Below, piece after piece: positions 7,718-31,947 of a stretch of 64,000 nucleotides of DNA; the first letter of the stretch is position 1; every line of letters starts with the position of its first letter. The DNA lies in the NCBI RefSeq assembly GCF_003148825.1, contig NZ_QGGZ01000002.1, positions 310,001-374,000 of the forward strand, read 5' to 3'. The translations under genes and the position numbers were made by a program. The DNA comes from Streptomyces sp. CG 926 (GTDB taxonomy: Bacteria > Actinomycetota > Actinomycetes > Streptomycetales > Streptomycetaceae). The notes under the pieces were generated by a model. It was not told the origin of the DNA and searched no databases. It saw nothing but the letters and a program-made list of their open reading frames with translations.

Positions 7718-7737
7718 TCGCCCCTGGCCGCACACGC

Positions 7738-7776
7738 CCGAAGGGCCGCCCCTCGTGTCGAGGAGCGGCCCTTCGG
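7738..7776. terminator. Bidirectional terminator hairpin
   Basis: CCGAAGGGCCGC-CCCTCG pairs with CGAGG-AGCGGCCCTTCGG around a 3-nt loop, with one mismatch. It lies between the convergent ends of nadA and the RND transporter gene. Confidence 0.8.
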
Positions 7777-7793
7777 CTGTCGTGCGACGGGTG

Positions 7794-10700
7794 TCAGGCC
7801 TTGGTCGGGACCTCGTCCTGCGCGGCGGCGGGAGCCGGGACCGCCGACAGTCGGGCCTCGCGCTTCGCCGACCGCTTGGCGCGGCGGCGCTCCTTGCGGA
7901 GCTCGACCATCGTGTAGAGGGTCGGCACCAGCAGCAGCGTCAGCAGGGTCGAGCTGACCAGGCCGCCGATCACCACGACCGCGAGCGGCTGCGAGATGAA
8001 GCCGCCCTCGCCGGTGACGCCCAGCGCCATCGGGAGCAGCGCGAAGATCGTCGCCAGAGCCGTCATCAGGATCGGGCGCAGCCGGTGCCGGCCGCCCTCG
8101 ATGACCGCTTCGACGACGCCCAGGCCCTGGGCGCGGTACTGGTTGACCAGGTCGATCAGGACGATCGCGTTGGTCACCACGATGCCGATGAGCATCAGCA
8201 TGCCGATCATCGCCGGGACGCCCATCGGGGTGCCGGTGACGATGAGCAGGCCGAGTGCGCCGGTCGCCGCGAACGGGATGGAGACCAGCAGGATCAGCGG
8301 CTGGATCAGCGACCGGAACGTCGCCACGAGCAGCATGAACACGATCGCGATGGCCGCGAGCATGGCCAGGCCCAGCGAGCCGAAGGCCTCGTCCTGGTCC
8401 TCGGAGACGCCGCCGATGGAGGCGGTGGCACCCTCGGGCAGGTCCAGCGCCTTGAGCTTGGTCTGCAGCTCGGTGCTGACCGCGCCGGTGTTGTCGCCGA
8501 GCGGCCGGGCGGTGACGGTGGCGGCGCGGGCGCCGTCGATCCGGGTCATCGCGACCGGGCCGGGGACCTCCTTGACCTCGGCGATGTCACCGAGCTTGAC
8601 CGGGCCGACCGGGAGCGCCTGCAGTTCGGCCAGGGTGGTGGCCGGCTGCGCGGACCTGATGACGATGTCCCGCTCGGTGTCGTCGAGTACCGCCTTGCCC
8701 GCCGGGTTGCCCCGGACGGCCTGCGCGACGATCGCGCCGAGCGCGGCCTGGTTCAGGCCGGCCTCGGCCGCCTTGGGAGTGGCGGTCACCGAGATGCGGG
8801 GCACCGACTGGGACAGGTCGCTCTGCACGTCGGCGACGTCCTTGAGCTTGGCGACCTCTGCGCGGACCTGCTCGGCCGCCTCGGCGAGGGTCTTGCCGTC
8901 ACCGGCCTTGACGACCACGCTGAGGTTCTGGCTGCCGAAGCCGTCGCCCGCCACGATGCGGGTCTCGCCGATGCCGTCGAGAGCGGCCAGCTTGCTCTCG
9001 ATGCCCTTCTTGACGGCGTCGGCCTTGCCGGAGTCCTTCAGGCTGACCTGGTACGAGGCCTGGTTGGAGCCCGTACCGCCACCGAAGGCCGCGAGGAAGC
9101 CGGAGGAGCCGACGGTGACCTGGTAGCTCTTGACGCCGTCGACCGAGGACAGCACCTGCTCGATCTTGCGGCTCGCCTCGTCGGAGGCCGCCAGCGAGGT
9201 GCCGGGGGCGAGCTCCTGCTTGACCGTCAGGACTTCCTGCTCGCCCTGGTCGAAGAAGTTGGTCTTCAGCAGCGGGGTCATCCCGAAGGTGCCGATCAGG
9301 ACGACCACCGCGATGGCCACACTGGTGACCCGGCGCCGGGTGGCGAAGCCCAGGACGCGGACGTAGAAGAGCTGGAGGCGGCTGCGCGCCTCCTTCTCCT
9401 CGGCCTCGCGGCGGGCCTTGGCCGCGCTCTCGGCGCTGCCGGGCTCGACGCCCTTGGGTGCGCTCAGGAACCAGTACGAGAGCACCGGTACGACCGTCAG
9501 CGAGACGAGCAGCGAGGCCAGCAGGGCCGCGGTGACGGTGAGCGAGAAGGAGCCGAAGAGCTCGCCGATCATGCCGCCGGTGAGGCCGATCGGCAGGAAG
9601 ACGGCGACGGTGGTGAGGGTGGAGGAGGTGACCGCGCCGGCGACCTCCTTGACCGCGGTGATGATCGCGGACTCGCGCTCCTCGCCGTAGCCGAGGTGGC
9701 GCTTGATGTTCTCCAGGACCACGATCGAGTCGTCGACGACGCGGCCGATGGCGATGGTGAGCGCGCCCAGGGTCAGCATGTTGAGCGACAGGTCCTGGGT
9801 CCACAGCACGATGAGCGCGAGGACCACGGACAGCGGGATGGAGACCGCCGTGACCAGCGTCGAGCGCAGCGAGGCCAGGAAGACCAGGATCACGATCACC
9901 GCGAAGAGCAGGCCGAGCAGGCCCTCGGTGGTGAGGCTGGAGATGGACTTGGCGACGGCCGGGCCCTGGTCGCCGACGACGGTGAGGTCGGCGCCGGCGC
10001 CGAGCGTGGTGCGCAGCTCGGGCAGCTTGTCCTTGACCGCGTCGGAGATGGCGACGGCGCTGCCGTCCTTGTCCATGGTGAGGACGAGGGCGAGGCTGGG
10101 CTTGCCGTTGGTACGGGTGATGGAGACGGCCTTGGCCGGCTCCTGCTTCACGGTGGCGACGTCGGCGAGGCGGACGGCCGGCTTGCCCGGACCGGGGGTC
10201 AGGCGCAGCTCTTCGAGCTGGGCGAGGGAGGTGTAGCCGTTGCCGACGCGCACGGTGCGGTTCTTGCCCGCCTCGTCGAAGGAGCCGGCGGGGACGGCCG
10301 CGCCGCCCGCCTGGAGGCCCTCGGCGAGCTTGGCGCCGTCGAGGCCGGCGGCCGCGAGCTTGGCGTTGTCGGGGGTGACGGTGACCTGGAGGTCCTGGAC
10401 GCCGTCGACGGTGACCTGGCCGACGCCCTCGATGTCCGAGAGGACGGGGACGACGGAACGTTCCAGCTGGTCGGCGAGCGCCTGCTGGTCCTTGTCGGAG
10501 GTGACGGCCAGGATGACGGTCGGGATGTCATCGGTGGAACCGGCCACGACCTGCGGGTCCACATCGGCGGGCAGCCGGACGCGGGCCCGGTTCACGGCCT
10601 GCTGGACGTCGGCGACGAGCTGCTTGGTGCCGCTGTCGCCGTAGTCGAAGGTGGCCATGATGAGGGCGTTGCCCTCGCTCGCGGTGGAGGTGATGCCGGT

Positions 10701-10934
10701 GAGGCCGTCGACACCCTTGAGCATGGCCTCGATCGGTTCGACGACCTGCTTCTCGACCACGTCGGGCGAGGCGCCCTGGTACGGCGCGAGCACGGACACC
10801 ATCGGCAGTTCGATGGAGGGCAGCAGCTGCTGCTTGAGCTGCGGGACGGCTATGGCGCCGAAGAGGAGCGCGACGATCGACACGAGGCCGACCAAGGCCC
10901 TTTGGGCCAGGCTGAAGCGGGACAGCCACGACAT
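7794..10934 (-). CDS. RND-family efflux transporter (AcrB/HAE1-like, Gram-positive type)
   Basis: 1046 aa, a proton-driven exporter of the AcrB/HAE1 superfamily like Bacillus SwrC. It has the duplicated layout of one N-terminal helix, a large external loop, five helices, a second loop and five helices. The TM4 acidic pair is in GRVVDDSIVVLEN. The start MSWLSRFSLAQRALVG is taken at ATG 10934; the frame stays open to 10979 but the extra residues lack similarity to such pumps. There is no adaptor or outer-membrane partner, as expected in an actinomycete. The C-terminal tail is basic and cytoplasmic. The response-regulator gene upstream runs in the same direction and may control it. Confidence 0.92.
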   Translation of the reverse strand: MSWLSRFSLAQRALVGLVSIVALLFGAIAVPQLKQQLLPSIELPMVSVLAPYQGASPDVVEKQVVEPIEAMLKGVDGLTGITSTASEGNALIMATFDYGDSGTKQLVADVQQAVNRARVRLPADVDPQVVAGSTDDIPTVILAVTSDKDQQALADQLERSVVPVLSDIEGVGQVTVDGVQDLQVTVTPDNAKLAAAGLDGAKLAEGLQAGGAAVPAGSFDEAGKNRTVRVGNGYTSLAQLEELRLTPGPGKPAVRLADVATVKQEPAKAVSITRTNGKPSLALVLTMDKDGSAVAISDAVKDKLPELRTTLGAGADLTVVGDQGPAVAKSISSLTTEGLLGLLFAVIVILVFLASLRSTLVTAVSIPLSVVLALIVLWTQDLSLNMLTLGALTIAIGRVVDDSIVVLENIKRHLGYGEERESAIITAVKEVAGAVTSSTLTTVAVFLPIGLTGGMIGELFGSFSLTVTAALLASLLVSLTVVPVLSYWFLSAPKGVEPGSAESAAKARREAEEKEARSRLQLFYVRVLGFATRRRVTSVAIAVVVLIGTFGMTPLLKTNFFDQGEQEVLTVKQELAPGTSLAASDEASRKIEQVLSSVDGVKSYQVTVGSSGFLAAFGGGTGSNQASYQVSLKDSGKADAVKKGIESKLAALDGIGETRIVAGDGFGSQNLSVVVKAGDGKTLAEAAEQVRAEVAKLKDVADVQSDLSQSVPRISVTATPKAAEAGLNQAALGAIVAQAVRGNPAGKAVLDDTERDIVIRSAQPATTLAELQALPVGPVKLGDIAEVKEVPGPVAMTRIDGARAATVTARPLGDNTGAVSTELQTKLKALDLPEGATASIGGVSEDQDEAFGSLGLAMLAAIAIVFMLLVATFRSLIQPLILLVSIPFAATGALGLLIVTGTPMGVPAMIGMLMLIGIVVTNAIVLIDLVNQYRAQGLGVVEAVIEGGRHRLRPILMTALATIFALLPMALGVTGEGGFISQPLAVVVIGGLVSSTLLTLLLVPTLYTMVELRKERRRAKRSAKREARLSAVPAPAAAQDEVPTKA

Positions 10935-11069
10935 GGGTATGAGATCTCTCTGCAGTGACGAACGCGAGGGCACGCCCACCCTGTCGCACCGCGGTGCCGT
11001 GTTTCGTCGCTCGCAGGTGCCGTCCTTATGTGCGGCATACCGCGTCTGGAGTACGTCGTACCGGCCGAA

Positions 11070-11792
11070 CTACTCCGCGCGTGGGCGGACCAGTCCTGAT
11101 TCGTACGCAATAACCACCAATTGGGCCCGGTCGCGGGCGCCGAGCTTGGCCATCGCCCGGTTCACGTGGGTCTTGACGGTCAGCGGGCTGACCTCCAGCC
11201 GTTCGGCGATCCCGTCGTTCGACAGCCCCGCCGCCACGTGTACGAGGACCTCGCGCTCCCGGACGGTCAGTGCGGCGAGCCGCTGCGCGTGCGACCCGGC
11301 ATCGGCGGTGGTGGGGCCGGCGCCGCCGCCCTGGGCGAGGAAGGTGGCGATGAGCCCTTTGGTCGCGGCCGGGGAGAGCAGCGCCTCGCCGGCCGCGGCG
11401 ACGCGGATGGCGTTGAGCAGTTCGTCCGGCTCGGCGCCCTTGCCGAGGAAGCCGGAGGCTCCGGCCCGCAGGGCCGAGACCACGTACTCGTCGACCTCGA
11501 ACGTCGTCAGCATCACCACGTGCACGTCGGCGAGTTCCGGGTCGGCGCTGATCATGCGGGTGGCGGCGAGCCCGTCGGTGCCGGGCATCCGGATGTCCAT
11601 GAGGACGACGTCGGGGCGCGTCCGGCGGGCGAGTTCGAAGGCCTCGGCCCCGTCGGAGGCCTCCCCGACGACCTCCATGTCGGGTTCGGAGTCGACGAGC
11701 ACCTTGAAGGCGCTGCGCAGCAGCGCCTGGTCGTCGGCGAGCAGCACCCTGACGGGCGCGGCGGAGGGCGGGTCCGTCGCAGTGTGGTCCAC
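11070..11792 (-). CDS. NarL/FixJ-family response regulator (orphan)
   Basis: 240 aa. The receiver domain (about 14-130) has the acidic pair AD-D (20-21), phosphoacceptor D66 in VLMDIRMPG and the T/K pair further on; a LuxR-type HTH follows (about 170-235, LTVREREVLVHVAAGLSN). It starts with GTG at 11792; TACCCT sits 6 nt upstream and there is no Shine-Dalgarno sequence, so the mRNA is probably leaderless. No kinase gene is adjacent; the nearest, of the right (NarX/DesK-like) type, starts at 21890. It precedes the RND exporter gene on the same strand, a plausible target. Confidence 0.9.
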   Translation of the reverse strand: MDHTATDPPSAAPVRVLLADDQALLRSAFKVLVDSEPDMEVVGEASDGAEAFELARRTRPDVVLMDIRMPGTDGLAATRMISADPELADVHVVMLTTFEVDEYVVSALRAGASGFLGKGAEPDELLNAIRVAAAGEALLSPAATKGLIATFLAQGGGAGPTTADAGSHAQRLAALTVREREVLVHVAAGLSNDGIAERLEVSPLTVKTHVNRAMAKLGARDRAQLVVIAYESGLVRPRAE

Positions 11793-11826
11793 GGGGTGAG
11801 GGTACGTGGGAGGGCCGGCCGCCGGC

Positions 11827-12648
11827 TCAGCCGAGGGCGAGGACGATCAGGGCGCAGGTCGCCGCGACCTCGGCCAGGGCGCCGAAGACGTCGCCGGTGA
11901 CCCCGTCGAAGCGGCGTACGCAGCGGCGCAGCAGCAGTTCTGCGGCGAGCAGGGCGGCGAGGACCGCGGCCGCGCTCCGGCCGGCGGCGGGCAGGCCCAT
12001 GGGCAGCGCGGCGGCCGCGGCGGCGGCGACGGTGAGCGCGGTGATCAGGGCGGCGGTGCGCCGGGGGACGGCCCCGGCGACGGCGGCGCCGAGCCCCCCG
12101 GGACGTGCCGCCGGTACGCCTTCGCGGCAGGCCAGGGTCATGGCGAGGCGGGCCGCCACGGCGGCGACCACGGCGGCGAGGGCGCCTCGGATCCAGCTCT
12201 CGGCGTAGATCTCGGACAGCGCGGCCACCTGCACGAGCAGCACGATCACCAGGGTCACGACGCCGAAGGGACCGATGTCGGACTGCTTCATGATCCGCAG
12301 GGCCTCGTCGGCCGGTTTGGCGCTGCCGAGGCCGTCGGCCGTGTCGGCGAGGCCGTCCAGGTGCAGGGCCCGGGTCAGCGCGGCCGGTCCGGCGACGGTG
12401 AGGGTCGCCGCGAGCAGCGGGCCGCCGCCGAGCAGCAGCAGGAGCACTCCGGGCAGGGCCGCGAGCACGCCCACGACCAGTCCGGCGAGCGGGGCGCAGG
12501 CCATTCCGGTGCGGGCGGCGGGGCGGTCCCAGCGGGTGATGCGGGCGGGCAGCACGGTGAGGGTGCCGAACGCGAAACGGACGCCGTCGGGGAACGAGGC
12601 GCGTTCCGGGGGCGGCGTCTGGGGCGGGCCGTCGAACGAATCTGTCAT
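11827..12648 (-). CDS. cobS: Adenosylcobinamide-GDP ribazoletransferase (cobalamin synthase)
   Basis: 273 aa integral membrane enzyme that joins adenosylcobinamide-GDP to alpha-ribazole(-phosphate), the last step of cobalamin assembly. The diagnostic HLDGLADTADGLG motif is present around residue 95, and five or six hydrophobic helices follow. With cobU (16775) and cobT (18144) it completes nucleotide-loop assembly, although the three genes are not one operon here. The start is ATG 12648. Confidence 0.93.
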   Translation of the reverse strand: MTDSFDGPPQTPPPERASFPDGVRFAFGTLTVLPARITRWDRPAARTGMACAPLAGLVVGVLAALPGVLLLLLGGGPLLAATLTVAGPAALTRALHLDGLADTADGLGSAKPADEALRIMKQSDIGPFGVVTLVIVLLVQVAALSEIYAESWIRGALAAVVAAVAARLAMTLACREGVPAARPGGLGAAVAGAVPRRTAALITALTVAAAAAAALPMGLPAAGRSAAAVLAALLAAELLLRRCVRRFDGVTGDVFGALAEVAATCALIVLALG

Positions 12649-12718
12649 CGGCGGGAACGGTACCCGCTCGTCGCGGACGGTAAATTACCCATTACATGCC
12701 AAATAGGGAGTCAGTGGG

Positions 12719-13492
12719 ATGGGTCACTGGTGGTATCGGAACATCGTCGAACCGGGGAAGCTGCCGCTCCTGCTCGCGCTGCTCTCCTTCGTACTGTCGT
12801 TCCTGGTCACCCGCATGATCACCCGGATGATCCGGGCCGGCCGGGGGCCCTTCAAGAACGTCACGCCGGGCGGTCTGCACATCCACCACGTGGTGCCGGG
12901 CGTGATCCTCGTGATCATCGGCGGTTTCGGCGCGGTCGGCAGCGGCCGGTACGGCTTCGGCGCCTACGCCTCGGCTGTGATCTTCGGCCTGGGCGCGGGC
13001 CTGGTCCTGGACGAGTTCGCGCTGATCCTGCACCTCGACGACGTCTACTGGAGCGAGCAGGGCCGCAAGAGCGTGGAGCTGGTGGTGATCACGGCCGCCG
13101 TCGTGGCCCTGGTCATCGGCGGTTTCGTGCCCTTCGGGGTGAACGACCTGTCCAGCGAGGAGCGCCAGAGCCGCGGCCTGGTCGTCATGAACGGGGCCAC
13201 CAACTTCTTCCTGGCCCTGATCGCCCTGTGGAAGGGCAAGGCGCGCACCGCGCTCTTCGGCCTGGTCGTCCCCTTGGTGGCGCTGGTCGGCGCGATCCGG
13301 CTGGCCCGGCCCGGGTCCCCGTACGCGAAGCGGTTCTACGGGAACCGGCCGCGCGCCCGGGCCAAGACCGAGCTACGGGCCTTCCACCACGACCGGCGCT
13401 GGGCGCGGCCGCGTCGCGCGTTCGAGAACTTCATCGGGGGGACCCCGGACCCGGAGCACCCCGTGTCCCCGGAGAAACCGCCCCGGCACTGA
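12719..13492 (+). CDS. Integral membrane protein with His/Asp-rich motifs, function unknown
   Basis: 257 aa with about six hydrophobic segments. Two conserved-looking polar motifs stand out: GGLHIHHVVPG near residue 50 and LDEFALILHLDDVYW near residue 105. Histidines and acids placed next to helices suggest a metal site or a membrane-embedded enzyme. The C-terminal 60 residues are basic and cytoplasmic. The start is supported by GGGAG 8 nt upstream. It is divergent from cobS. I do not recognise a named family. Confidence 0.8.
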   Translation: MGHWWYRNIVEPGKLPLLLALLSFVLSFLVTRMITRMIRAGRGPFKNVTPGGLHIHHVVPGVILVIIGGFGAVGSGRYGFGAYASAVIFGLGAGLVLDEFALILHLDDVYWSEQGRKSVELVVITAAVVALVIGGFVPFGVNDLSSEERQSRGLVVMNGATNFFLALIALWKGKARTALFGLVVPLVALVGAIRLARPGSPYAKRFYGNRPRARAKTELRAFHHDRRWARPRRAFENFIGGTPDPEHPVSPEKPPRH

Positions 13493-21157: not shown

Positions 21158-21855
21158 CAGCGTGGAACACGTCCCCACTGCGGCAGTTCGCCCGCCGTGA
21201 GTGGGGACCCATGTTCTGGACCGTCCGGGACGCGCTGGTCCGCGACACGTGGCGGGCCATCCCGATGACCATCGGCGCGGTCTGCCTGACCTCGGTCTTC
21301 CAGATCGTCCAGAACACCTCCTGGGGGTTCCAGCCGGTCCAGAACCTCGGATCGGTCAAAGCCGTCGACCCGCTCGGGCCGGCCCTCCTGCGCACCCCGC
21401 TGTCCCTGTTCGTCCCCGCCCTGGACCTGCCGGTGTGGGGGGCGCTCGCGCAGATCCTGCTCGTCTTCGGCATCGCCGAGATCTGCATCGGCTGGTGGCG
21501 CACCCTGCTGATCGGCTACGTCGCCACGCTCGCCGGAACCATGTACGCCCGGATCGGGCTCGCGCTCGGGCCGGAGCATCCTCTCGGCCTGCCGGTGTCC
21601 GACCGGATCGTCAACGACACCGGGCCCTCGGCGGCGGTGGTGGGGCTGGCCATCTACCTCTGCTGGCGCTACCGGGCGTACCTGACCGGAGCCTTGGTGA
21701 TCCTGGCGATGATCGGCGAGGTGCTGGTCAAGGACAACCTTGCGGGCAAGGAGCACCTGGCGGCCATCACCGCCGTCATGGCGGTGTGCGTGGTGCGGGC
21801 CCGCTGGGGGACGGTGCGGGCGCGCGCTTCACTGGGGCACCCCCCTCCGCCGTAG
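21154..21855 (+). CDS. Rhomboid-like membrane protein
   Basis: 233 aa with about six hydrophobic segments. A serine in NDTGPSAAVVG (C-terminal third) and a histidine in GKEHLAAITAVM resemble the Ser/His dyad spacing of rhomboid proteases, as in the Streptomyces 'rhomboid-like' family. It starts at TTG 21154, whose TG overlaps the stop of the lysyl-PG-synthase-like gene, so the two are translationally coupled. Protease activity is inferred only. An internal ATG at 21211 would remove the first 19 residues. Confidence 0.7.
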   Translation: MTAWNTSPLRQFARREWGPMFWTVRDALVRDTWRAIPMTIGAVCLTSVFQIVQNTSWGFQPVQNLGSVKAVDPLGPALLRTPLSLFVPALDLPVWGALAQILLVFGIAEICIGWWRTLLIGYVATLAGTMYARIGLALGPEHPLGLPVSDRIVNDTGPSAAVVGLAIYLCWRYRAYLTGALVILAMIGEVLVKDNLAGKEHLAAITAVMAVCVVRARWGTVRARASLGHPPPP

Positions 21856-21889
21856 GGGGCCCCGGTGGATCAGGCCGTACCGTAGCCGG

Positions 21890-23116
21890 GTGACGACAGA
21901 CCTCGGGCCGTTCGCCCCCACCCGGCAGTGGATGCGGGCCCATCCGCTCGCCACCGATGCCGTGCTGGCGTTCGGGGCCTTCGTCTCCATGGTCCTCGGC
22001 TCCTTCGCCGATCCGCACGGGCCGCATGGGCCCACCTTCGGGACGCGCACCCCCGAGCCGTTCTCGCTGCTGCTGATGCTGCTCGGCGCGACCGCCCTGG
22101 TGTTCCGGCGCCGGCAGCCGAGGGCCGTGCTCGCCGTGACCTGCGGGCTGTCCCTGCTGGAGCTGACCACCGGGGAACCGCGGGCGCCCGTCGCGATGTG
22201 CACGGTGATCGCCCTGTACACGGTGGCCTCGCGCACCGACCGGCCGACGACCTGGCGGATCGGGCTGCTCACCATGGCCGGGCTGACGGGCGTGGCCATG
22301 CTGGCCGGGCCGCTGCCCTGGTACGCGCAGGAGAACATCGGGATCTTCGCCTGGACCGGGATGGCCGCGGCCGCCGGCGACGCCGTGCGCAGCCGGCGGG
22401 CCTTCGTCGACGCCATCCGGGAACGGGCCGAGCGCGCCGAGCGGACCCGGGAGGAGGAGGCCAGGCGGCGGGTCGCCGAGGAGCGGCTGCGGATCGCCCG
22501 GGACCTGCACGACGTGGTCGCCCATCACATCGCCCTGGTCAACGTGCAGGCGGGAGTGGCCGCGCACGTCATGGACAAGCGCCCGGACCAGGCCAAGGAG
22601 GCGCTCGCGCACGTACGGGACGCCAGCCGGTCGGCGCTGAACGAACTGCGGGCCACGGTCGGGCTGCTGCGGCAGTCGGGCGACCCGGAGGCGCCGACGG
22701 AGCCCGCGCCGGGGCTCGGCGTCCTGGACGAGCTGGTGGACACCTTCCGGCACGCCGGACTGCCGGTGGAGGTCATCGTCCAGCTGGACGGGACGCCGCA
22801 GGCGGGGGCACTGCCGGCGGCGGTGGACCTGGCGGCGTACCGGGTGATCCAGGAGGCGCTGACGAACGTACGCAAGCACGCGGGGCCGGGGGCGAAGGCG
22901 GAGGTCAGCGTGGTGCGGGTGGGGCCGTCGGTGGAGGTGACGGTCCTGGACGACGGCGGCGAGTCGGCGGACCCGGCGCCGGAACCGACCGATCCGGGCG
23001 GGGGCCACGGGCTGCTCGGCATGCGGGAGCGCACCGGCGCCCTGGGCGGCACCTGCTTCGCGGGCCCCCGCTTCGGCGGCGGCTACCGCGTCCACGCCAT
23101 CCTCCCCCTGGGGTAG
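21890..23116 (+). CDS. Sensor histidine kinase (NarX/DesK type, orphan)
   Basis: 408 aa. Four or five helices (25-150), a coiled-coil linker (about 170-200), the HisKA_3 dimerisation domain with phospho-His in RDLHDVVAHHIALV, and an HATPase domain (N-box EALTNVRKHAG, then DDGG and GHGLLGMRER). This class pairs with NarL-type regulators, but none is adjacent; the orphan regulator at 11070 is the nearest candidate. TACCGT (21878-21883) is 6 nt from the GTG, so the mRNA may be leaderless. A large inverted repeat follows the stop. Confidence 0.9.
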   Translation: MTTDLGPFAPTRQWMRAHPLATDAVLAFGAFVSMVLGSFADPHGPHGPTFGTRTPEPFSLLLMLLGATALVFRRRQPRAVLAVTCGLSLLELTTGEPRAPVAMCTVIALYTVASRTDRPTTWRIGLLTMAGLTGVAMLAGPLPWYAQENIGIFAWTGMAAAAGDAVRSRRAFVDAIRERAERAERTREEEARRRVAEERLRIARDLHDVVAHHIALVNVQAGVAAHVMDKRPDQAKEALAHVRDASRSALNELRATVGLLRQSGDPEAPTEPAPGLGVLDELVDTFRHAGLPVEVIVQLDGTPQAGALPAAVDLAAYRVIQEALTNVRKHAGPGAKAEVSVVRVGPSVEVTVLDDGGESADPAPEPTDPGGGHGLLGMRERTGALGGTCFAGPRFGGGYRVHAILPLG

Positions 23117-23351: not shown

Positions 23352-24164
23352 CTACGGGCAGAGTTTGCGCCACGCGTCCAAGTCGTACCGTTTCTGCATG
23401 GAGCTCAGCTTCGCCGCGCGAGCGACCGGGCACCAGCGGGTCAGGCGGCCCTCGTACTCCACGTGGAAGACCGCCTTGCCCGCGTCGACGAACGGCTCGT
23501 ACCGGTCGCACTCCTCGTACTCCACGCACTGCTCGTTCACCGCGAAGTCGAAGTCCCCGACCAGCTCCGGGATCTGGTCCAGGTCGTTCTTCAGCCCCAC
23601 CGACATGCCCCGGTCGTGCACCAGCCGGGCGATCAGGCGGTTGTACTTCAGCTGGTCGTCCGCGGTCAGCGGGAAGCCGGAACGGTTGGTGTAGGCGTCC
23701 ATGTTGTCGGGCTCCACCGCGTCGAAGCCCTTCTCCTTGCACATGTCGAACCGCTTGCCCATCAGCGGTTCCAGTTGCGTCAGGGCCCGGATGTCCAGCC
23801 AGCGCTCGCCCTCCCAGCCGTTGCCCTCGCCGAGCAGTGCCTTCGGGAAGGCGTCGGCGTCCGGTCGGAAGTCCTCCCAGGCGCCGGTCGAGAGGTAGCA
23901 GATGGTCTTGCGGCCGTCCTTCTTCAGGGTGGCGACCTGCTCCTTCGTGGTGTTGAACCCGTCGACGTCGTAGACGGCCGCCTTCACCGAGGTGTCGAGC
24001 TTCCCGGTGAGCTGCCACTGCCAGCCGACCCCCGGTTTCGGCTGCCACCGCTGCCCCGGCGCCGGGTCGGGCGACAGCTCGTCCCGTTCCGGTTCGGGCG
24101 GGGGGCTGGTACAGGCGGCGAGCAGCAGCAGGGGCACGGCCAGCGCGAGGGCGAGCTTCCTCAT
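23352..24164 (-). CDS. GH114-family lipoprotein, probable endo-alpha-1,4-galactosaminidase
   Basis: 270 aa. A lipoprotein signal (residues 1-18, LLLLAAC) places it outside the membrane. Residues 40-270 are a GH114 TIM barrel: YDVDGFN, the acidic cluster at D148, E151 and D153 in GFDAVEPDNMDAY, and E211 in NEQC. The family includes fungal Ega3, which cleaves alpha-1,4-galactosamine in galactosaminogalactan. It is the last gene of the cluster; its ATG overlaps the preceding stop by 4 bp. It probably trims or releases the exported polymer. Activity is inferred from family and context. Confidence 0.85.
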   Translation of the reverse strand: MRKLALALAVPLLLLAACTSPPPEPERDELSPDPAPGQRWQPKPGVGWQWQLTGKLDTSVKAAVYDVDGFNTTKEQVATLKKDGRKTICYLSTGAWEDFRPDADAFPKALLGEGNGWEGERWLDIRALTQLEPLMGKRFDMCKEKGFDAVEPDNMDAYTNRSGFPLTADDQLKYNRLIARLVHDRGMSVGLKNDLDQIPELVGDFDFAVNEQCVEYEECDRYEPFVDAGKAVFHVEYEGRLTRWCPVARAAKLSSMQKRYDLDAWRKLCP

Positions 24165-24856
24165 CCGGCCGCCTCCAGGGCGTACGGCAGGGTCCCCCAG
24201 GGGTGCGCGCCACTGCCGGGGACGGCGCAGTGCACCCCGGCTCCGCGTTCGGCGGCGAGTTCCTCGGCGAGCCGGGCGGCGAGTGCGCCCGGCGGGACCC
24301 CGTACACGAGGTGGCAGAACCGCCCGGCGGGGTGGTCGGCGGTCCAGGGCGGTACGGCGGCCGCGTCCCGGTAGGCGTCCCAGGGGCCCTCGAAGGTGAC
24401 GAGCAGGTCGGCGAGTTCGGCGTAGCCGGGGTGCGGGTGGACCCCGTGGTTGAGGACGAGGGTCTGGGCGCCGGCGGCCCGGGCGGCGACCGCGAGCCGC
24501 CCGTAGTGCGGGAGCAGTTCCGGGTCGGCGGAGGCTTGGTCGAGGAAGGCCCCGTCGGTGGCGTACCAGTCGCGGTGGCGCAGCAGGTCCTGCACCACCT
24601 GGGCGTGCGGGCGCCGCCCGTAGTCGGTGTCGGCGTATCCGAGGACGGGTACGCCGACCTCGCGCAGCCGCTCGGCGACGGCGGCGAAGCGTTCGTCGCG
24701 GGCGGCGCCCGGTCCGCTGTCGGGGTTGAGGACCACCGAGTGCAGCCGGCCGGCGGAGCGGATCAGCCGCTCCCAGGCTTCCGGCCGGTCGGCGGGATGC
24801 TCGTAGAGGGGCACCAGCAGCATGGGGTCCTTCTTCTCGTACGGGTGGTGCGTCAT
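24161..24856 (-). CDS. Spherulin-4-like protein (GH135/Sph3-like)
   Basis: 231 aa. The sequence fits the spherulin-4 family: LLVPLYEHPAD at the start, GYADTDYGRR (73-82), FLDQ (D106) and VTFEGPWDAY (E156), a TIM-barrel order of conserved acids like the fungal GAG hydrolase Sph3. No signal peptide or membrane anchor is visible from ATG 24856, so it may act inside the cell. The start overlaps the upstream stop by 4 bp and its own stop overlaps the GH114 start. The likely substrate is N-acetylgalactosamine-containing polymer. Confidence 0.8.
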   Translation of the reverse strand: MTHHPYEKKDPMLLVPLYEHPADRPEAWERLIRSAGRLHSVVLNPDSGPGAARDERFAAVAERLREVGVPVLGYADTDYGRRPHAQVVQDLLRHRDWYATDGAFLDQASADPELLPHYGRLAVAARAAGAQTLVLNHGVHPHPGYAELADLLVTFEGPWDAYRDAAAVPPWTADHPAGRFCHLVYGVPPGALAARLAEELAAERGAGVHCAVPGSGAHPWGTLPYALEAAG

Positions 24857-26412
24857 CGGTGGGCGGTCGCGCGGCCGAGGAGCAGGCAGACCAGGCCGGC
24901 CAGTACGGTGGCGGCCGCGCCGGCCACCACCAGTTGGACCGCTCGGGGTTGGCCCAGCCCGGTCAGCAGGGCCAGGCTCTGGGCGACGGCGGCCGAGGAG
25001 CAGACGACGGCCGCGGGCCGGACGGCTCCGAAGGACTGCAGGAGCAGCCCGGTCCACATGACGGCCCCGAGCAGCAGCAGGGTCGCGATCCGGACCCCGG
25101 TGAGGACGGGGGCGTCGGGCCAGAGCAGGGTGCCCGCCAGCCCCAGGGCCAGCAGGACGGTCAGGTAGACGGCGAGGCACCGGGTCAAGGTGGTGAGCAT
25201 CCGGCGCCGGAAGGCCCGCGGCGAGCGGGCCCCCTGGAGCCCGGAGAGGCTCCCGCTGCGGAACCGGTGGAGCAGCCATTCGGCCGGTCCCATGCTGAGG
25301 GTGAGGGCCACGGCCGAGGGGGCGGCGACCGCTTCGGCGGGGCCTCCGGCGAGGACCTCGCCGAGGGCGGCGTACAGCACGAGCAGGCCGGTGCCGAGGC
25401 CGAAGACCCCGTAGGGGACCGAGTCCCCGATCCGGGGTCCGCGGGGTGCGAAGTCCTCCTCGGCGCCGCGCAGCATCTGCCAGCGCACGGGGCCCTGTCC
25501 GGGGCGACGGGCCGCGTGGTTGCGGATCCGGCGGGCGGCGGACCGGAGCCCGTCGGCCAGCGGGAGTTCCCGTAGGGCCAGGGTGCAGGCGGCCAGCAGG
25601 GAGGTCACGAGCAGGGTCACCCGGACCGGTACGGGCAGGTCGACGAAGAGCGCGAGCAGTGCTCCGACGGCCATCGGGGCGAGGGCGGCGAGCAGGACCC
25701 GTTCCCGGCCGAGGACCAGCAGGACGGTGGCGGCCCCGACGTAGAAGGCCTGTCCGGCGGCGAAGGCGTAGGAGAACGGGGGTCCGCCGGGCACCGACAG
25801 TGCGGCGGCGGTGCCCAGCAGGGCGCCGACGGGGGCGCCGACGAGCAGGGTCCGCCCGGCGGCACGCCGGTCGCCGAGGCCGAGCCAGGAGTAGGCCCGG
25901 TGGGACAGGGTCTGGTCCCAGACCCAGCCGATGAGCGCGCCGGCGAGCAGGGTCAGGGTCCCGGCGGGCAGGCCGAGGCGGTCCTGCGGGCCTTCGAGCA
26001 GGGGTGCGCCGAGCAGGTAGGCCAGGCCGGGCAGGGCGAAGATCACCCCGCGTAGCAGGCAGGCGGTGAGGGAGACCTTCCAGGGGTCGGGGGCGGCGCC
26101 CGGCTCCGGGAAGGAGCGGGGCACCCGGGCGTAGAGCTCCTCGGCGAGGGCGAAGGAGTCGTGCCGGCCGTAGGTGAGCCGGATGTACTCGTCCGTCATG
26201 CCGTCGGATTCGAGGATGGCGGCGATCTCGTCGGGGTGGACGGCCGAGGCGATGAACACGTCGAGGCGTTCGGCGAGTTCGTCCATCGGGTCGGCGGCGG
26301 CATCGGCCGCGGTGACGTCGGCGCCGCGGCGCGGCCGGGGGACGGCCGGGAGCGTGTCGGCGCCGGCGCCGGGACCGGAGCCGGGCGGCTTGAGCCAGAG
26401 GGATCCGCTCAC
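24853..26412 (-). CDS. Polytopic membrane protein of the exopolysaccharide cluster
   Basis: 519 aa. A Pro/Gly-rich leader (1-45), a soluble helical segment (about 45-110, MDELAERLDVFIASAVHPDEIAAIL) and roughly twelve hydrophobic helices to the C-terminus. GTG 26412 overlaps the TGA of the glycosyltransferase gene, so the two are coupled. Position next to a PelF-type transferase suggests the PelG-like role of membrane partner or exporter, but I see no sequence signature that proves homology to PelG. It could instead be a flippase-like protein of a new family. Confidence 0.75.
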   Translation of the reverse strand: MSGSLWLKPPGSGPGAGADTLPAVPRPRRGADVTAADAAADPMDELAERLDVFIASAVHPDEIAAILESDGMTDEYIRLTYGRHDSFALAEELYARVPRSFPEPGAAPDPWKVSLTACLLRGVIFALPGLAYLLGAPLLEGPQDRLGLPAGTLTLLAGALIGWVWDQTLSHRAYSWLGLGDRRAAGRTLLVGAPVGALLGTAAALSVPGGPPFSYAFAAGQAFYVGAATVLLVLGRERVLLAALAPMAVGALLALFVDLPVPVRVTLLVTSLLAACTLALRELPLADGLRSAARRIRNHAARRPGQGPVRWQMLRGAEEDFAPRGPRIGDSVPYGVFGLGTGLLVLYAALGEVLAGGPAEAVAAPSAVALTLSMGPAEWLLHRFRSGSLSGLQGARSPRAFRRRMLTTLTRCLAVYLTVLLALGLAGTLLWPDAPVLTGVRIATLLLLGAVMWTGLLLQSFGAVRPAAVVCSSAAVAQSLALLTGLGQPRAVQLVVAGAAATVLAGLVCLLLGRATAHR

Positions 26413-27935
26413 CAAAGGCTCCCGTCGGCGGCGAGTTCGCGGTACCAGGGGTCGGCGAGCCGCTGGGTCCATTCGTCGCCCGCGTGGACGGGCAGGACGG
26501 GCTGGCCGGCGAGTTCGCGGTAGATGTGCCGGAAGCCGTCCACGGACTGGTGGAGGGTGAACTTCTCCACGACCCGCTTGCGGGACAGGCGGCCGAGCTC
26601 GGCGCGGCGTCGGTCGTCGCGGAGCAGGGCGAGGGTGGCGCGGGCCATGGTCTCGGGTTCGCGGGGCGGGACGACGAGGCCGGTGTCGCCGACGGCCTCG
26701 CGGACTCCGCCGACGTCGGTGGAGACGGTGGTGCGGCCGCAGGACATGGCTTCGATGATGCTGAAGGGGAAGCCCTCGCTGATGGAGGACAGCATGACGA
26801 CGCTGCCGGCCGCGTAGGCCGTGGCCACCTGGTCGATGCGGCCCTCGTAGGTGATCCCGTCGGTCACGCCGAGTTCGGCGGCGAGCTTCTCCAGGCGGAG
26901 CTTGTACTCCTCGCAGCCGGCCGGCACGGGGCCGAAGAGGCGCAGCCGCAGGGCGGGCAGTTCCTCGCGCATGAAGGCGTAGGCCCGGATGAGGGTTTCG
27001 AGGTCCTTGATCGGGTCGATGCGGCCGCACCAGCTGAGGGTGGGCACGTCGGGTTCGGGTCCGGCCTCGGGGAAGGCGTGCGGGTCGACGCCGTTGTAGA
27101 CGGTGCGGATGCGCTCGGATTCGGCGCCTCCGCGTTCCTCCCAGCGGCGGTTGTACTGGTTGCACGGGGTGATCAGGTCGGCCTGCCGGTAGCCCTCGGT
27201 GTTGAGCTCGCGGTAGAAGCCGAGCATCAGGGCCTTGACGGGCCAGCGTTGGGCGGCGCTGCGGTAGCCGAGGTAGCGCTCGCGCAGGTAGATGCCGTGC
27301 TCGGTGAGCAGGAAGGGGACGCCGTCGAGGTACTTGGCGGCGAGGGCCGGGAGGGTGGCGAGGCCGCTGCTGACGGCGTGCGCGACGCTGTCGGGCGGGA
27401 TCCGGACACTGAGCGGGCGCAGTGCGTGTTCCAGCAGGTCGGTGGCGGTGAGCGCGTCGTGGATGGTGGGCGCTGCGTCGGCGGTGACGAGTCCGGGCCG
27501 GGTCCATACGGCCATCAGCAGCCGCAGGACGGATTCGGACCGCAGGGCCGGTGCGAGCTTTCCGGCCCGGGCCAGGACGGCCAGTTCGCGCAGGGCCTCG
27601 GAGAAGCTGTGCCGGGCGGGATCGGGCTCGGGGTCGAGCAGGGAGAGCAGGAAGCTCTCGTAGACCTGGGTGAAGCGGCGGTGGGCCCTGCCGCGCAGGA
27701 CCGACCGGCGGCTGCGGGGCGGGAGCGGCCCCCACAGCGGGAAGGCGGTGTGCCGGTAGACGTTGCGGGGCAGTTCCCAGGTGACCGGCTCTCGTCCGGA
27801 GCCGGTCAGGGCTATGACGTTGAAGTCGACTTCCGGCATACCTCGCACGAGTTGGTCGCACCAGGTGCTGACGCCCCCGTGGACGTGCGGGTAGGTGCCT
27901 TCGGTGAGCATGGTGACGTGACGCCCATGACTCAT
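26409..27935 (-). CDS. GT4 glycosyltransferase, PelF type
   Basis: 508 aa. The N-terminus has the PelF (DUF3492) signature: MLTEGTYPHVHGGVSTWCDQLV. The C-terminal GT-B domain carries SWCGRIDPIKDLETLIRAY and the retaining EX7E motif, E387 to E395, in EGFPFSIIEAM. PelF uses UDP-GalNAc/UDP-sugar to polymerise alpha-linked aminosugar, and fungal GAG synthesis likewise uses a GT4 enzyme. ATG 27935 has a GGGGGG block about 9 nt upstream. It is the first of four genes joined by stop/start overlaps and follows the deacetylase gene after 99 nt. Confidence 0.88.
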   Translation of the reverse strand: MSHGRHVTMLTEGTYPHVHGGVSTWCDQLVRGMPEVDFNVIALTGSGREPVTWELPRNVYRHTAFPLWGPLPPRSRRSVLRGRAHRRFTQVYESFLLSLLDPEPDPARHSFSEALRELAVLARAGKLAPALRSESVLRLLMAVWTRPGLVTADAAPTIHDALTATDLLEHALRPLSVRIPPDSVAHAVSSGLATLPALAAKYLDGVPFLLTEHGIYLRERYLGYRSAAQRWPVKALMLGFYRELNTEGYRQADLITPCNQYNRRWEERGGAESERIRTVYNGVDPHAFPEAGPEPDVPTLSWCGRIDPIKDLETLIRAYAFMREELPALRLRLFGPVPAGCEEYKLRLEKLAAELGVTDGITYEGRIDQVATAYAAGSVVMLSSISEGFPFSIIEAMSCGRTTVSTDVGGVREAVGDTGLVVPPREPETMARATLALLRDDRRRAELGRLSRKRVVEKFTLHQSVDGFRHIYRELAGQPVLPVHAGDEWTQRLADPWYRELAADGSLW

Positions 27936-28034
27936 ACGGTGTGTCCCCCCAGGACGGAAAAGGGGCCGGCGCCCGTGGGTTCGCGGAGCGCCGGCGCTAG
28001 GTGGTACTGGTACGCGTGGTGATGTGCGGGACGG

Positions 28035-30062
28035 TCAGCTGGGCAGCTTGAGCGTGACGGCGCTCTGGAGCAGCTCGGGACCGGTCCAGGTGGAGCGGGT
28101 ACCGGCGTACGCGGTGCCGAAGTCGGCGGTGCCGAGCAGCAGCTGCTTCTTGGTGCCGGTGGGGGCGGTCACCGGGGCGACGACCCCGGAGGGCGCCTTG
28201 ATGGTGACGTCCTTGCCGATGCGGTAGGCGGTGACCTTGCCGTCCGCGAGGGCCTTGTCCCAGGCGGCGCGGCGCTGGAACTCGACGCCGGTGTCCTTCA
28301 TGCTCTGGTTCACGATCGGCGCGCTGGGGGCGTAGAGGGCGCGGTAGGTGTCGAGGACCTGGTTGAGCACCGGGTAGAGGGTGCGGTCCTCGGCGAGGTT
28401 GGACTGGTGGACGTAGTGCGGGCGGGGGTCGTTGGCCAGGACGTGGCGCAGGGCGGTGCGGGCCTCGGCCGGGACGATGGTGTCGAGGTAGCCGGTGTTG
28501 ACGTCCAGCGGGGCCGGCAGGCAGGTGGAGGTCGCCGGATTGTCCTCACAGACGCCGCTTCCGCCCTGGGCGCGGCTGGTGTAGATCCAGTTGTACTCGT
28601 CGGCCATCTCGGAGTTGGTGCCCGTGTTGTAGTACACGTTCATCGGGTGCCGGGGGACCGTGAGGGCCGCGCCGACCGCGCGCTGCGCGGGTTCGCGGGA
28701 GTTGTCGCTGCCCGCCCACTTGACCCCGTTGTCGGCGAGGGCGCCGGCGAGGTTGGGGTTGTCCACGGGCTGCTGCGGTGCGGTCTTGAGGCCGGAGTGC
28801 TCACCGGTGACCAGTTCGGTCTTGTCCGTGGTGATGCCCTTGGAGGCCGCCCAGTTGTTGTTGTCGCGGATCTGGGCGGAGATCTCGGCGCGGCTCATGT
28901 ACTGGATCGCGCCGGCGGAGTTCTTCGTACAGGTCCACGGTGCGACGGTGGTGTTCTGGACGCAGCCGAGGAACGGGTGGGTGTAGGTGTGGTTCATCCA
29001 GCGGTACTTGGCGCGGTCGGCGACGAGCTGGGCGGTCAGCGCGTCGACACCGCCGTTCTCGGCCTTCCACTCCTCCCCGGCACCGCCGTTGAAGAGCATG
29101 TCGAGCTTGAAGCTCTTCGACGTCTGCCACTGCGCCGCGTACACGGCGTCGGCGGCGCTCATCCGGATGGTGCTCTCCTTGCCCTCGCCGCCCGCGCAGG
29201 CGTAGTCGCCCGGCGTGCAGTTCAGGTCCTTGCTCCAGCGGGCGTCGGGGGCGAAGACGTCGTCGACGTGGACCGCGAAGTAGTTGCGGCTCTGGCCGAG
29301 GTGCACCCCCTGGGTCAGCCAGTCGACGATGCCGCGGGCGAGCAGTCGGAACTGCTGCTGGTACTGGTTGTAGCCGAAGGTGACGACCAGTTCGCTGCGG
29401 CCGTCGTGCGCGTACTCGCCGACGAGCGAGGCGCGGCCGGTGCCGACGGGCGCGTCGACGTAGCTGGTGTAGCCGGGGCGCGGCTTGCCCATGAAGCCGT
29501 AGCTCTCGGGGACCAGGGCCGAGTTGTCCTCGAAGGTGACCTGGCCGCCGAGGTAGGCGAAGGGGCCTGCCTTGCCGGCGGTGGTGACGGCGGCCTGGGT
29601 GCCGTCGAGCTGTCCGCTGTAGCCGCCGTTGTCGGTGTATTCCAGCCCGACGCCCGGGTGGGCCCAGGTGTAGGCGTCGACCTGGCGGATGCCGTACGTC
29701 GTCTCGTAGGCGGTGAGGGCGGCCATCTCGGCCGAACCCTCGCCGAACGGGTTCTCGTTCGGCAGGACGACACCCTGGTACTTGGCGCGCGGACGGCCGT
29801 CCACGGTGTCGCTGAGGAAGCCCGCGTTGATGACCGGGCGGCCGCTGCTGCCCAGCTGGACGCGGGTGTAGGGCACCCCCGTGTCGCGGAGTTCCGCGGT
29901 GATCGCCTCGACCGAGCTGCCGCCGTCGTCGACGACCAGCACCTTCAGGTCGATGCGTGGTGTCGCGGCCGCCTGGGCGGTCGCGGCGGGTACTGCCACG
30001 GATACCAGGGCTGCTGCCGCCATCATCGCGGCGACCCTGTTCATCCGATTCTTGTTGACCAT
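28035..30062 (-). CDS. Secreted Agd3-like (CE18) polysaccharide deacetylase
   Basis: 675 aa. A Sec signal peptide (1-32, ...ATAQAA), an N-terminal beta-rich region compatible with the carbohydrate-binding part of fungal Agd3 (about 35-250), and a NodB-like catalytic domain. Motif 1 is HVDDVFAPD (D267, D268) and motif 2 is HTYTHP (H358, H362), the metal-binding triad of CE4/CE18 deacetylases. The likely reaction is partial N-deacetylation of poly-GalNAc, giving a cationic, adhesive polymer. GGAAAGG lies 7 nt before ATG 30062. It is first in the cluster. Confidence 0.85.
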   Translation of the reverse strand: MVNKNRMNRVAAMMAAAALVSVAVPAATAQAAATPRIDLKVLVVDDGGSSVEAITAELRDTGVPYTRVQLGSSGRPVINAGFLSDTVDGRPRAKYQGVVLPNENPFGEGSAEMAALTAYETTYGIRQVDAYTWAHPGVGLEYTDNGGYSGQLDGTQAAVTTAGKAGPFAYLGGQVTFEDNSALVPESYGFMGKPRPGYTSYVDAPVGTGRASLVGEYAHDGRSELVVTFGYNQYQQQFRLLARGIVDWLTQGVHLGQSRNYFAVHVDDVFAPDARWSKDLNCTPGDYACAGGEGKESTIRMSAADAVYAAQWQTSKSFKLDMLFNGGAGEEWKAENGGVDALTAQLVADRAKYRWMNHTYTHPFLGCVQNTTVAPWTCTKNSAGAIQYMSRAEISAQIRDNNNWAASKGITTDKTELVTGEHSGLKTAPQQPVDNPNLAGALADNGVKWAGSDNSREPAQRAVGAALTVPRHPMNVYYNTGTNSEMADEYNWIYTSRAQGGSGVCEDNPATSTCLPAPLDVNTGYLDTIVPAEARTALRHVLANDPRPHYVHQSNLAEDRTLYPVLNQVLDTYRALYAPSAPIVNQSMKDTGVEFQRRAAWDKALADGKVTAYRIGKDVTIKAPSGVVAPVTAPTGTKKQLLLGTADFGTAYAGTRSTWTGPELLQSAVTLKLPS

Positions 30063-30408: not shown

Positions 30409-31947
30409 GTGACTGCTCTGACTCTCAGCACTGCCGGCGCGGCGACGCTCCGCGCCGACGCCCTCGTGGTCGGCGTGGCGAAGGGCCCCAAGGGACCGAT
30501 CGTCGCCGCGGGCGCCGAGGCCGTGGACAAGGCGTACGACGGTAAGCTCGCCGGCGTCCTCGACGCTCTGGGCGCCTCGGGCGCCGAAGGCGAGATCACC
30601 AAGCTGCCGGCCCCGGCGGGCCTCAAGGTCCCGGTCGTGCTGGCGGTGGGGCTCGGCTCCGTCCCCGAGAAGGACGAGTCGTTCGACGAGGAGGTGCTGC
30701 GCCGCGCCGCCGGCGCCGCCGCCCGCGCGCTGCACGGCACCAAGAAGGCCGCGTTCGCCCTCCCGCTGGAGGACGCCTCGGCCGTCACCGCCGTCGCCGA
30801 GGGCGCCCTGCTGGGCGCGTACGCGTTCACCGCCTACCAGGGCGGCGAGAACAAGGTCCGCAAGGAGGCCAAGGGCGCGGCCCCGAAGGCCCCGCTGGCC
30901 GAGGTGGCCCTGCTGGGCGCCAAGCCCCGCGACAAGGAGCACAAGGCCGCGATCGAGCGCGCCGCGGTCGTGGCGGCCGAGGTCAACGTCGCCCGCGACC
31001 TGGTGAACACCCCGCCGAACGACCTGACCCCCGAGGCCTTCGCCGCGGTCGCCTCCGCGGCCGCGAAGGAGAACGGCATCAAGGTCCAGGTGCTGGACGA
31101 GAAGGCCCTCCTCAAGGGCGGCTACGGCGGCATCATGGGCGTCGGCAAGGGCTCCGAGAACCTGCCGCGCCTGGTGAAGCTCACGTACACGCACCCGAAG
31201 GCGGAGAAGACCCTGGCCTTCGTCGGCAAGGGCATCACCTACGACTCGGGCGGCATCTCCCTGAAGCCGGCCGGCCACAACGAGACGATGAAGTGCGACA
31301 TGGCCGGCGCCGCCGCCGTCTTCGCCTCCGTGGTCGCGGCCGCGAAGCTGGGCCTGAAGGTCAACGTCACCGGCTGGCTCGCGCTCGCCGAGAACATGCC
31401 GTCCGGCTCCGCCACCAAGCCCGGTGACGTGCTGCGCATGTACAGCGGCAAGACCGTCGAGGTCCTCAACACGGACGCCGAGGGCCGGCTCGTCCTCGGT
31501 GACGCGCTGACCAAGGCCTCCGAGGACAACCCGGACGCGATCGTCGACGTCGCCACCCTGACCGGCGCCATGGTGCTCGCCCTCGGCGACCGCACCTTCG
31601 GGATCATGTCGAACGACGACGCCTTCCGTACGTCGATCCACGAGATCGCCGAGGAGGTCGGCGAGTCCTCCTGGCCGATGCCGCTCCCCGCCGAGCTGCG
31701 CAAGACCATGGACTCCCCCACCGCCGACATCGCGAACATGGGTGTCCGCATGGGCGGCGGCCTGGTGGCCGGTCTGTTCCTGCAGGAGTTCGTCGGCGAG
31801 GGCATCACCTGGGCCCACCTCGACATCGCCGGCCCGGCCTTCCACGAGGGCGCGCCGCACGGTTACACCCCCAAGGGCGGCACCGGCTCCGCCGTCCGCA
31901 CCCTGGTGCGGCTGGCCGAGCGCACGGCCACGGGCGACCTCGGCTGA
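30409..31947 (+). CDS. pepA: Leucyl aminopeptidase (M17)
   Basis: 512 aa cytosolic metallo-aminopeptidase. The M17 signature NTDAEGRL and the metal/catalytic lysine segments GKGITYDSGG and KCDMAGAAAV are intact; the N-terminal macro-like domain spans about 1-170. It removes N-terminal residues in peptide turnover and forms hexamers in this family. It starts with GTG at 30409. It is divergent from the deacetylase gene and is followed by a strong hairpin at 31969. Confidence 0.95.
   Translation: MTALTLSTAGAATLRADALVVGVAKGPKGPIVAAGAEAVDKAYDGKLAGVLDALGASGAEGEITKLPAPAGLKVPVVLAVGLGSVPEKDESFDEEVLRRAAGAAARALHGTKKAAFALPLEDASAVTAVAEGALLGAYAFTAYQGGENKVRKEAKGAAPKAPLAEVALLGAKPRDKEHKAAIERAAVVAAEVNVARDLVNTPPNDLTPEAFAAVASAAAKENGIKVQVLDEKALLKGGYGGIMGVGKGSENLPRLVKLTYTHPKAEKTLAFVGKGITYDSGGISLKPAGHNETMKCDMAGAAAVFASVVAAAKLGLKVNVTGWLALAENMPSGSATKPGDVLRMYSGKTVEVLNTDAEGRLVLGDALTKASEDNPDAIVDVATLTGAMVLALGDRTFGIMSNDDAFRTSIHEIAEEVGESSWPMPLPAELRKTMDSPTADIANMGVRMGGGLVAGLFLQEFVGEGITWAHLDIAGPAFHEGAPHGYTPKGGTGSAVRTLVRLAERTATGDLG

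Follow-up and report, generated by a model that had tools for sequence, protein, structure and literature searches.

The galactosaminogalactan (GAG) cluster of Aspergillus fumigatus consists of uge3, gtb3/gt4c, sph3, ega3, and agd3. The activity of Agd3 on GAG has been characterized (PMC7229062), as have those of the fungal GH135 and GH114 enzymes (PMC11356417). According to the main text of Bamford et al. (2020; PMC7229062), Agd3 homologs occur in 45 bacterial species, in operons that encode a glycosyltransferase and a multi-spanning membrane protein in all identified cases, a GH114 enzyme in most of them, and spherulin-4 in some Actinobacteria; the same text proposes a bacterial origin of the fungal cluster through bacteria-to-fungus transfer. 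The Pel genes are organized as pelABCDEFG in Pseudomonas and as pelDEADAFG in Gram-positive bacteria, including Actinobacteria (PMC7112168). Here, an operon of five minus-strand genes is described from Streptomyces sp. CG 926, at positions 23352-30062 of a 64,000-nucleotide stretch of contig NZ_QGGZ01000002.1 (the window). These genes encode, in this order, an Agd3-like deacetylase, a PelF-type GT4 glycosyltransferase, a polytopic membrane protein, a Spherulin-4 protein, and a GH114 lipoprotein, and the operon is likely an exopolysaccharide biosynthesis locus of the GAG/Pel-like kind known in bacteria since 2020.

As in the operons covered by the main text of Bamford et al., there is an Agd3 homolog of the CBM87-CE18-beta type, a cytoplasmic glycosyltransferase, a multi-spanning membrane protein, a GH114 enzyme, and the spherulin-4 seen in some Actinobacteria. 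This class of operons was thus described already in 2020 and the locus in the window is a further confirmed case of it, which removes the novelty that the initial annotation, made from the sequence alone, had claimed for a bacterial counterpart of the fungal system. That main text is silent on the fold of the membrane protein, the location of spherulin-4, transposon-borne units, and a universal Streptomyces paralog, and these four points appear to be unreported in the literature searched. The operon shares four of the five enzyme classes of the A. fumigatus cluster but lacks an epimerase, encodes the glycosyltransferase and the membrane part by separate genes, and has a Spherulin-4 protein without a signal or anchor and a GH114 enzyme that is a lipoprotein. 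Its likeness to Pel lies in the PelF-type GT4 that adjoins a polytopic, putatively MOP-like protein and in the exported deacetylase and hydrolase. In contrast to Pel, no PelD, PelE, or PelA was found among the five genes or the neighboring open reading frames scanned, the membrane protein is not PelG by sequence, a CE18-like enzyme replaces the PelA deacetylase, and GH135 and GH114 replace GH166.

Enzymes of the five-gene operon

Gene starts were refined from stop/start codon overlaps, which read GTGA at the GT4/membrane protein junction and ATGA at both the membrane protein/Spherulin-4 and the Spherulin-4/GH114 junctions; the last three genes are each start/stop-coupled to their upstream neighbors. 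Between the deacetylase gene and the GT4 gene downstream of it there are 99 nt. A promoter/terminator scan of the operon revealed no signal above chance.

The deacetylase (positions 28035-30062, minus strand, like the other four genes) is a secreted de-N-acetylase of 675 amino acids with an N-terminal signal sequence and a CBM87-like domain that precedes the CE18-like catalytic domain. It contains all the CE18 motif residues that are named in the main text of PMC7229062: D267 and D268 (DD), H358 and H362 (HxxxH), R471 (CM3), and H552 (CM4). These residues are near-invariant in the alignment of its homologs, except for two proteins encoded by solitary genes without the rest of the operon (L062, 9422-11503, and L063, 9494-11614; L numbers denote individual loci), which lack the metal-binding histidines, with N-G-T-Y-D-R in place of N-H-T-Y-T-H. 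The Pfam models of Agd3 alone scored below their own cut-offs (4e-5 for CE and 1e-3 for CBM87), and such matches were not counted as proof; a single-sequence phmmer search of the PDB with the deacetylase gave no match. A profile built from 22 homologs retrieved Agd3 (PDB entry 6nwz) at 1.2e-29 in two stretches that span both domains. This was the only really significant PDB match of the profile, with heparan sulfate N-deacetylases next at 0.03. The AlphaFold model of the protein, with a predicted local distance difference test (pLDDT) score of 87, also had 6nwz as its top Foldseek match (E value 1e-28), aligned over the whole length with template modeling (TM) scores of 0.67/0.68. Both the profile and the whole-length fold thus display the Agd3 architecture of CBM87, CE18, and C-terminal beta domains, and the protein is not placed with unrelated peptidoglycan deacetylases. 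The next structural matches were the human heparan sulfate N-deacetylase/N-sulfotransferase NDST1 (Foldseek E value 9e-18) and then, weakly, PelA; the match of the model to NDST1 suggests that CE18 and the animal N-deacetylases have a common origin.

The second gene (26409-27935) encodes a cytosolic protein of 508 amino acids that combines DUF3492 (Pfam, 3e-57) with a GT4 domain. It scored 167.8 bits with the NCBIfam PelF model (cut-off, 100; 4e-49) and is 28% identical, over the full length, to the PelF that adjoins pelG/pelD in Pseudoalteromonas. Its partner, a membrane protein with a GTG start (24853-26412), had no family match in Pfam or NCBIfam. An AlphaFold model based on 28 homologs (pLDDT, 85.7; residues 1 to 42 disordered) consists of a soluble helical N-terminal domain of ~60 residues and ~12 transmembrane helices. 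In Foldseek searches of the PDB it matched MATE transporters first, followed by WzxE and MurJ, with a probability of 1.00 and weak E values (4e-4 to 0.1; TM, 0.36-0.51). Membership in the PelG sequence family was rejected: there was no match to Pfam PelG (PF16933), and an hhalign comparison of the membrane protein family with a true PelG, encoded beside pelF in Pseudoalteromonas, was not significant. The protein is likely a polymer transporter and, judging by its predicted MATE/MOP-like fold, probably works like PelG while standing outside that sequence family.

The GH114 lipoprotein (23352-24164; 270 amino acids, with an LAAC lipobox) resembles endo-alpha-1,4-galactosaminidases. It scored 284 bits with the Pfam model (cut-off, 27; 8e-85), retains the conserved Asp of the PDN motif and the Glu of the NEQC motif, and has Ega3 (PDB entry 6oj1; 7e-55) as the most similar solved structure. 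Taken together, the profiles and the deacetylase model bear out what the initial annotation had read from the sequence, namely, five minus-strand genes of these enzyme classes, the deacetylase with DD at 267-268 and HxxxH at 358-362 (now joined by R471 and H552), a GT4 with a separate, unfused membrane partner, and Spherulin-4 and GH114 products that do belong to GH135 and GH114.

Conservation, mobility, and ancestry of the unit

The deacetylase was found in 69 of 150 sampled Streptomyces genomes and in 9 of 296 sampled Actinomycetota genomes, 4 of these 9 being Streptomyces. In 20-kb neighborhoods, five-gene synteny was seen in most of the 59 loci examined, from Streptomyces and others, and all five genes were present in 47 of the 55 named loci with full flanks, which upholds the conservation of the cluster as a unit. 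The gene order is held at one chromosomal site, between leucyl aminopeptidase/lpd/sucB on one side and the lysylphosphatidylglycerol synthase/cobT region on the other. With the order kept in dozens of genomes, the gene association is beyond chance. S. virginiae, S. avidinii, S. xanthophaeus, and S. lavendulae are the nearest named relatives. Outside the operon, the plus-strand gene for leucyl aminopeptidase (M17; 30409-31947) is a constant divergent neighbor that marks the orthologous site. On the other side, a HisKA_3-type sensor kinase gene (21740-23116), convergent with the operon, is kept only in the closest relatives (22 of 55 loci).

The unit is also found on mobile elements. On a mobilizable plasmid of Kocuria rosea (L268, 7577-16913), the five genes, and no others, are flanked by two identical copies of a 944-bp insertion sequence with 17-bp ends, in inverted orientation; this natural composite transposon marks the limits of the polysaccharide unit. 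Plasmids of Deinococcus and Thermus carry genes for PelF, the membrane protein, the Agd3-like protein, and GH114, with no annotated Spherulin-4 gene. A second (type 2) operon, ~60% identical, lies at another genome site, often in strains that also hold the first type; the S. californicus copy is carried by a linear plasmid.

The initial annotation had viewed the Streptomyces locus as a possible ancestor of the fungal cluster, a view that finds no support in the GH114 tree. In this tree of 54 sequences with long branches, only two of them fungal (taken from the PDB), Ega3 and FsGH114 form a group (100/99) with enzymes from Burkholderia, Vibrio, Pseudoalteromonas, and one non-Streptomyces actinobacterium, and the enzymes of the Streptomyces clusters fall outside it. 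Ega3 shares 55% identity with its Burkholderia counterpart and no more than about 50% with those of Streptomyces, so neither the tree nor the identities support the Streptomyces GH114 as its closest relative. The tree leaves the direction of the transfer unsettled.

The Spherulin-4 protein and its paralog cluster

The fourth gene (24161-24856, ATG start) encodes a GH135-like TIM-barrel protein of 231 amino acids without a signal peptide. It matched Pfam Spherulin4 at 2.9e-30 (106 bits; cut-off, 30), and its profile retrieved Sph3 (PDB entry 5c5g) at 3e-29. Equivalents of the Sph3 catalytic pair D166/E222 (residue roles partly after PMC12054363) are kept in all 116 cluster-linked homologs; the adjacent E167 position is occupied by Gln in 106 of them and by Arg in 8. 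No Streptomyces cluster homolog has a hydrophobic export signal before the first barrel strand; such a signal is seen only at two loci, L066 and L067, from another actinobacterial family. The fungal Sph3 carries an N-terminal membrane domain (PMC11356417). With neither a signal nor an anchor of that kind, the bacterial protein is predicted to act in the cytosol, beside the synthase. A further Spherulin-4 (GH135-like) protein of the source genome (L082, 9516-10520) is secreted, has a signal sequence, and is encoded on its own at another locus; it was considered as a second operon and rejected.

Searches with the membrane protein revealed weak partners in genomes without a deacetylase gene. In 24 of the 26 loci examined (L182-L187 and L218-L237), including that of the source genome (L218, about 6764-12800), they belong to a cluster with the order GT4, membrane protein, short-chain dehydrogenase/reductase (SDR), Spherulin-4, and moeZ-like gene; the other two loci were partly matched or truncated. 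The GT4 of this cluster scored 109.5 bits with the PelF model (cut-off, 100). No deacetylase or GH114 gene accompanies the cluster within the stretches examined. Relatives of its Spherulin-4 protein were found in 144 of 150 Streptomyces genomes, with lower-scoring matches that include the operon type. With 55 of 56 sequences lacking the catalytic Glu, and 10 of 56 the Asp, this paralog is likely a pseudoenzyme. Neither it nor the predicted cytosolic site of the operon protein was noticed in the initial annotation. In S. coelicolor, the paralog cluster is presumably SCO5174-SCO5177. Samples of the second mycelium are listed as having higher expression of SCO5174, SCO5175, and SCO5177 (PMC3610822), and an SCO5174 mutant produced less actinorhodin (PMC6585502).

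It could tentatively be proposed, though with the odds somewhat against it, that the PelF/MOP-type synthase of actinobacteria includes the GH135-like protein as a cytosolic subunit, which would be active and cut nascent acetylated chains in the deacetylase-linked operons and would have a noncatalytic, chain-binding or regulatory role in the near-universal paralog.

Proposed nature of the polymer

In a GAG/Pel-like system of this kind, the PelF-type GT4 would polymerize a uridine diphosphate (UDP)-N-acetylhexosamine (HexNAc) on the cytosolic side, most likely UDP-N-acetylgalactosamine (UDP-GalNAc) from housekeeping epimerases, and the MATE/MOP-like membrane protein would carry the chain across the membrane, as is thought for PelG. 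The secreted CE18/CBM87 enzyme, whose predicted activity is deacetylation of an alpha-1,4-GalNAc polymer, would bind the emerging chain and strip part of its acetyl groups, yielding a cationic, adhesive chain with surface adhesion as its putative purpose. The GH114 lipoprotein, on the external side of the membrane, would trim the deacetylated stretches, and the Spherulin-4 protein, inside the cell beside the synthase, may act on acetylated nascent or stalled chains for length control or clearance.

Several observations weigh against this scheme. No polymer has been isolated; the five genes include no UDP-Glc(NAc) 4-epimerase or other precursor gene; the deacetylase is only ~17% identical to Agd3 in the structural alignment and has Tyr550 in place of the conserved Met666; and a few loci (L086 and L099) keep the deacetylase without the rest. 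In addition, the type 2 operons of Streptomyces and the one of Deinococcus ficus hint at another or an additional sugar. Three extra genes are found in them between the membrane protein gene and the Spherulin-4 or deacetylase gene, coding for a LegB-like SDR (HTSTSE-YG), a sugar-1-phosphate nucleotidyltransferase, and a second, reductase-like SDR (L269, 15174-17854; L270, 6002-8706; L047, 14140-17021). A reading of these SDRs as GalNAc 4-epimerases was abandoned when NCBIfam and the motif indicated LegB: the S. californicus copy scored 453.6 bits as a LegB-like 4,6-dehydratase, just under the cut-off of 475, and only 141 bits as galE. GalNAc/galactosamine (GalN) is therefore put forward conditionally, as an assignment that rests on family membership, with sister clusters that contain a LegB-like dehydratase and not a Uge3-like epimerase. 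Of the initial proposal, a GAG/Pel-like locus making a partly deacetylated alpha-1,4-GalNAc polymer, the class holds, and the polymer stays conditional for want of a precursor gene and in view of these sister operons.

The LegB-like set may supply a 6-deoxy or otherwise modified amino sugar in the sister operons, and the same architecture could make a polymer other than poly-GalNAc/GalN in the window strain as well, such as one of 6-deoxy-HexNAc, the more so as the source genome encodes, at a distant locus, a relative that is 54% identical to the LegB-like enzyme. This is unlikely, however, for an operon that itself has none of the three extra genes, whose GH114 is most like the GalN-specific Ega3 among the solved structures, and whose genome encodes two galE-class epimerases elsewhere. 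Decoration or remodeling of an existing wall glycan, such as teichoic acid, with no free exopolysaccharide, appears less probable still. Galactosamine-containing wall polysaccharides have been reported in Streptomyces (cited in the main text of PMC7229062), and the near-universal paralog cluster, with no deacetylase or GH114 within the stretches examined, would be in line with such a role, but the full-length relationship to PelF, the putatively MOP-like partner, and the two endo-galactosaminidase-like families are better suited to a homopolymer. A role of the set in catabolism or defense, directed against GAG or Pel from neighboring fungi and bacteria, would account for the export of the deacetylase and GH114 and for the GH114 genes that are also found alone; it is the least probable of these alternatives, and very improbable overall, as intact operons contain a dedicated PelF-type synthase and membrane protein, the Spherulin-4 protein is predicted to be cytosolic, and no genes for sugar uptake or catabolism are attached.

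With synthesis of a GAG/Pel-like exopolysaccharide as the likely function, about half of Streptomyces species have a compact, self-contained operon of this type, which the joint travel of its five genes on the Kocuria transposon marks out as a complete module and whose function can be tested in a genetically tractable host by one deletion. If the GH135-like protein is indeed a synthase subunit, nearly all Streptomyces would make a PelF-dependent polymer during development. The combination of a predicted cytosolic hydrolase with a near-universal, likely inactivated paralog raises the question of how PelF-type synthases are controlled, to which the fungal and Pseudomonas systems give no answer.

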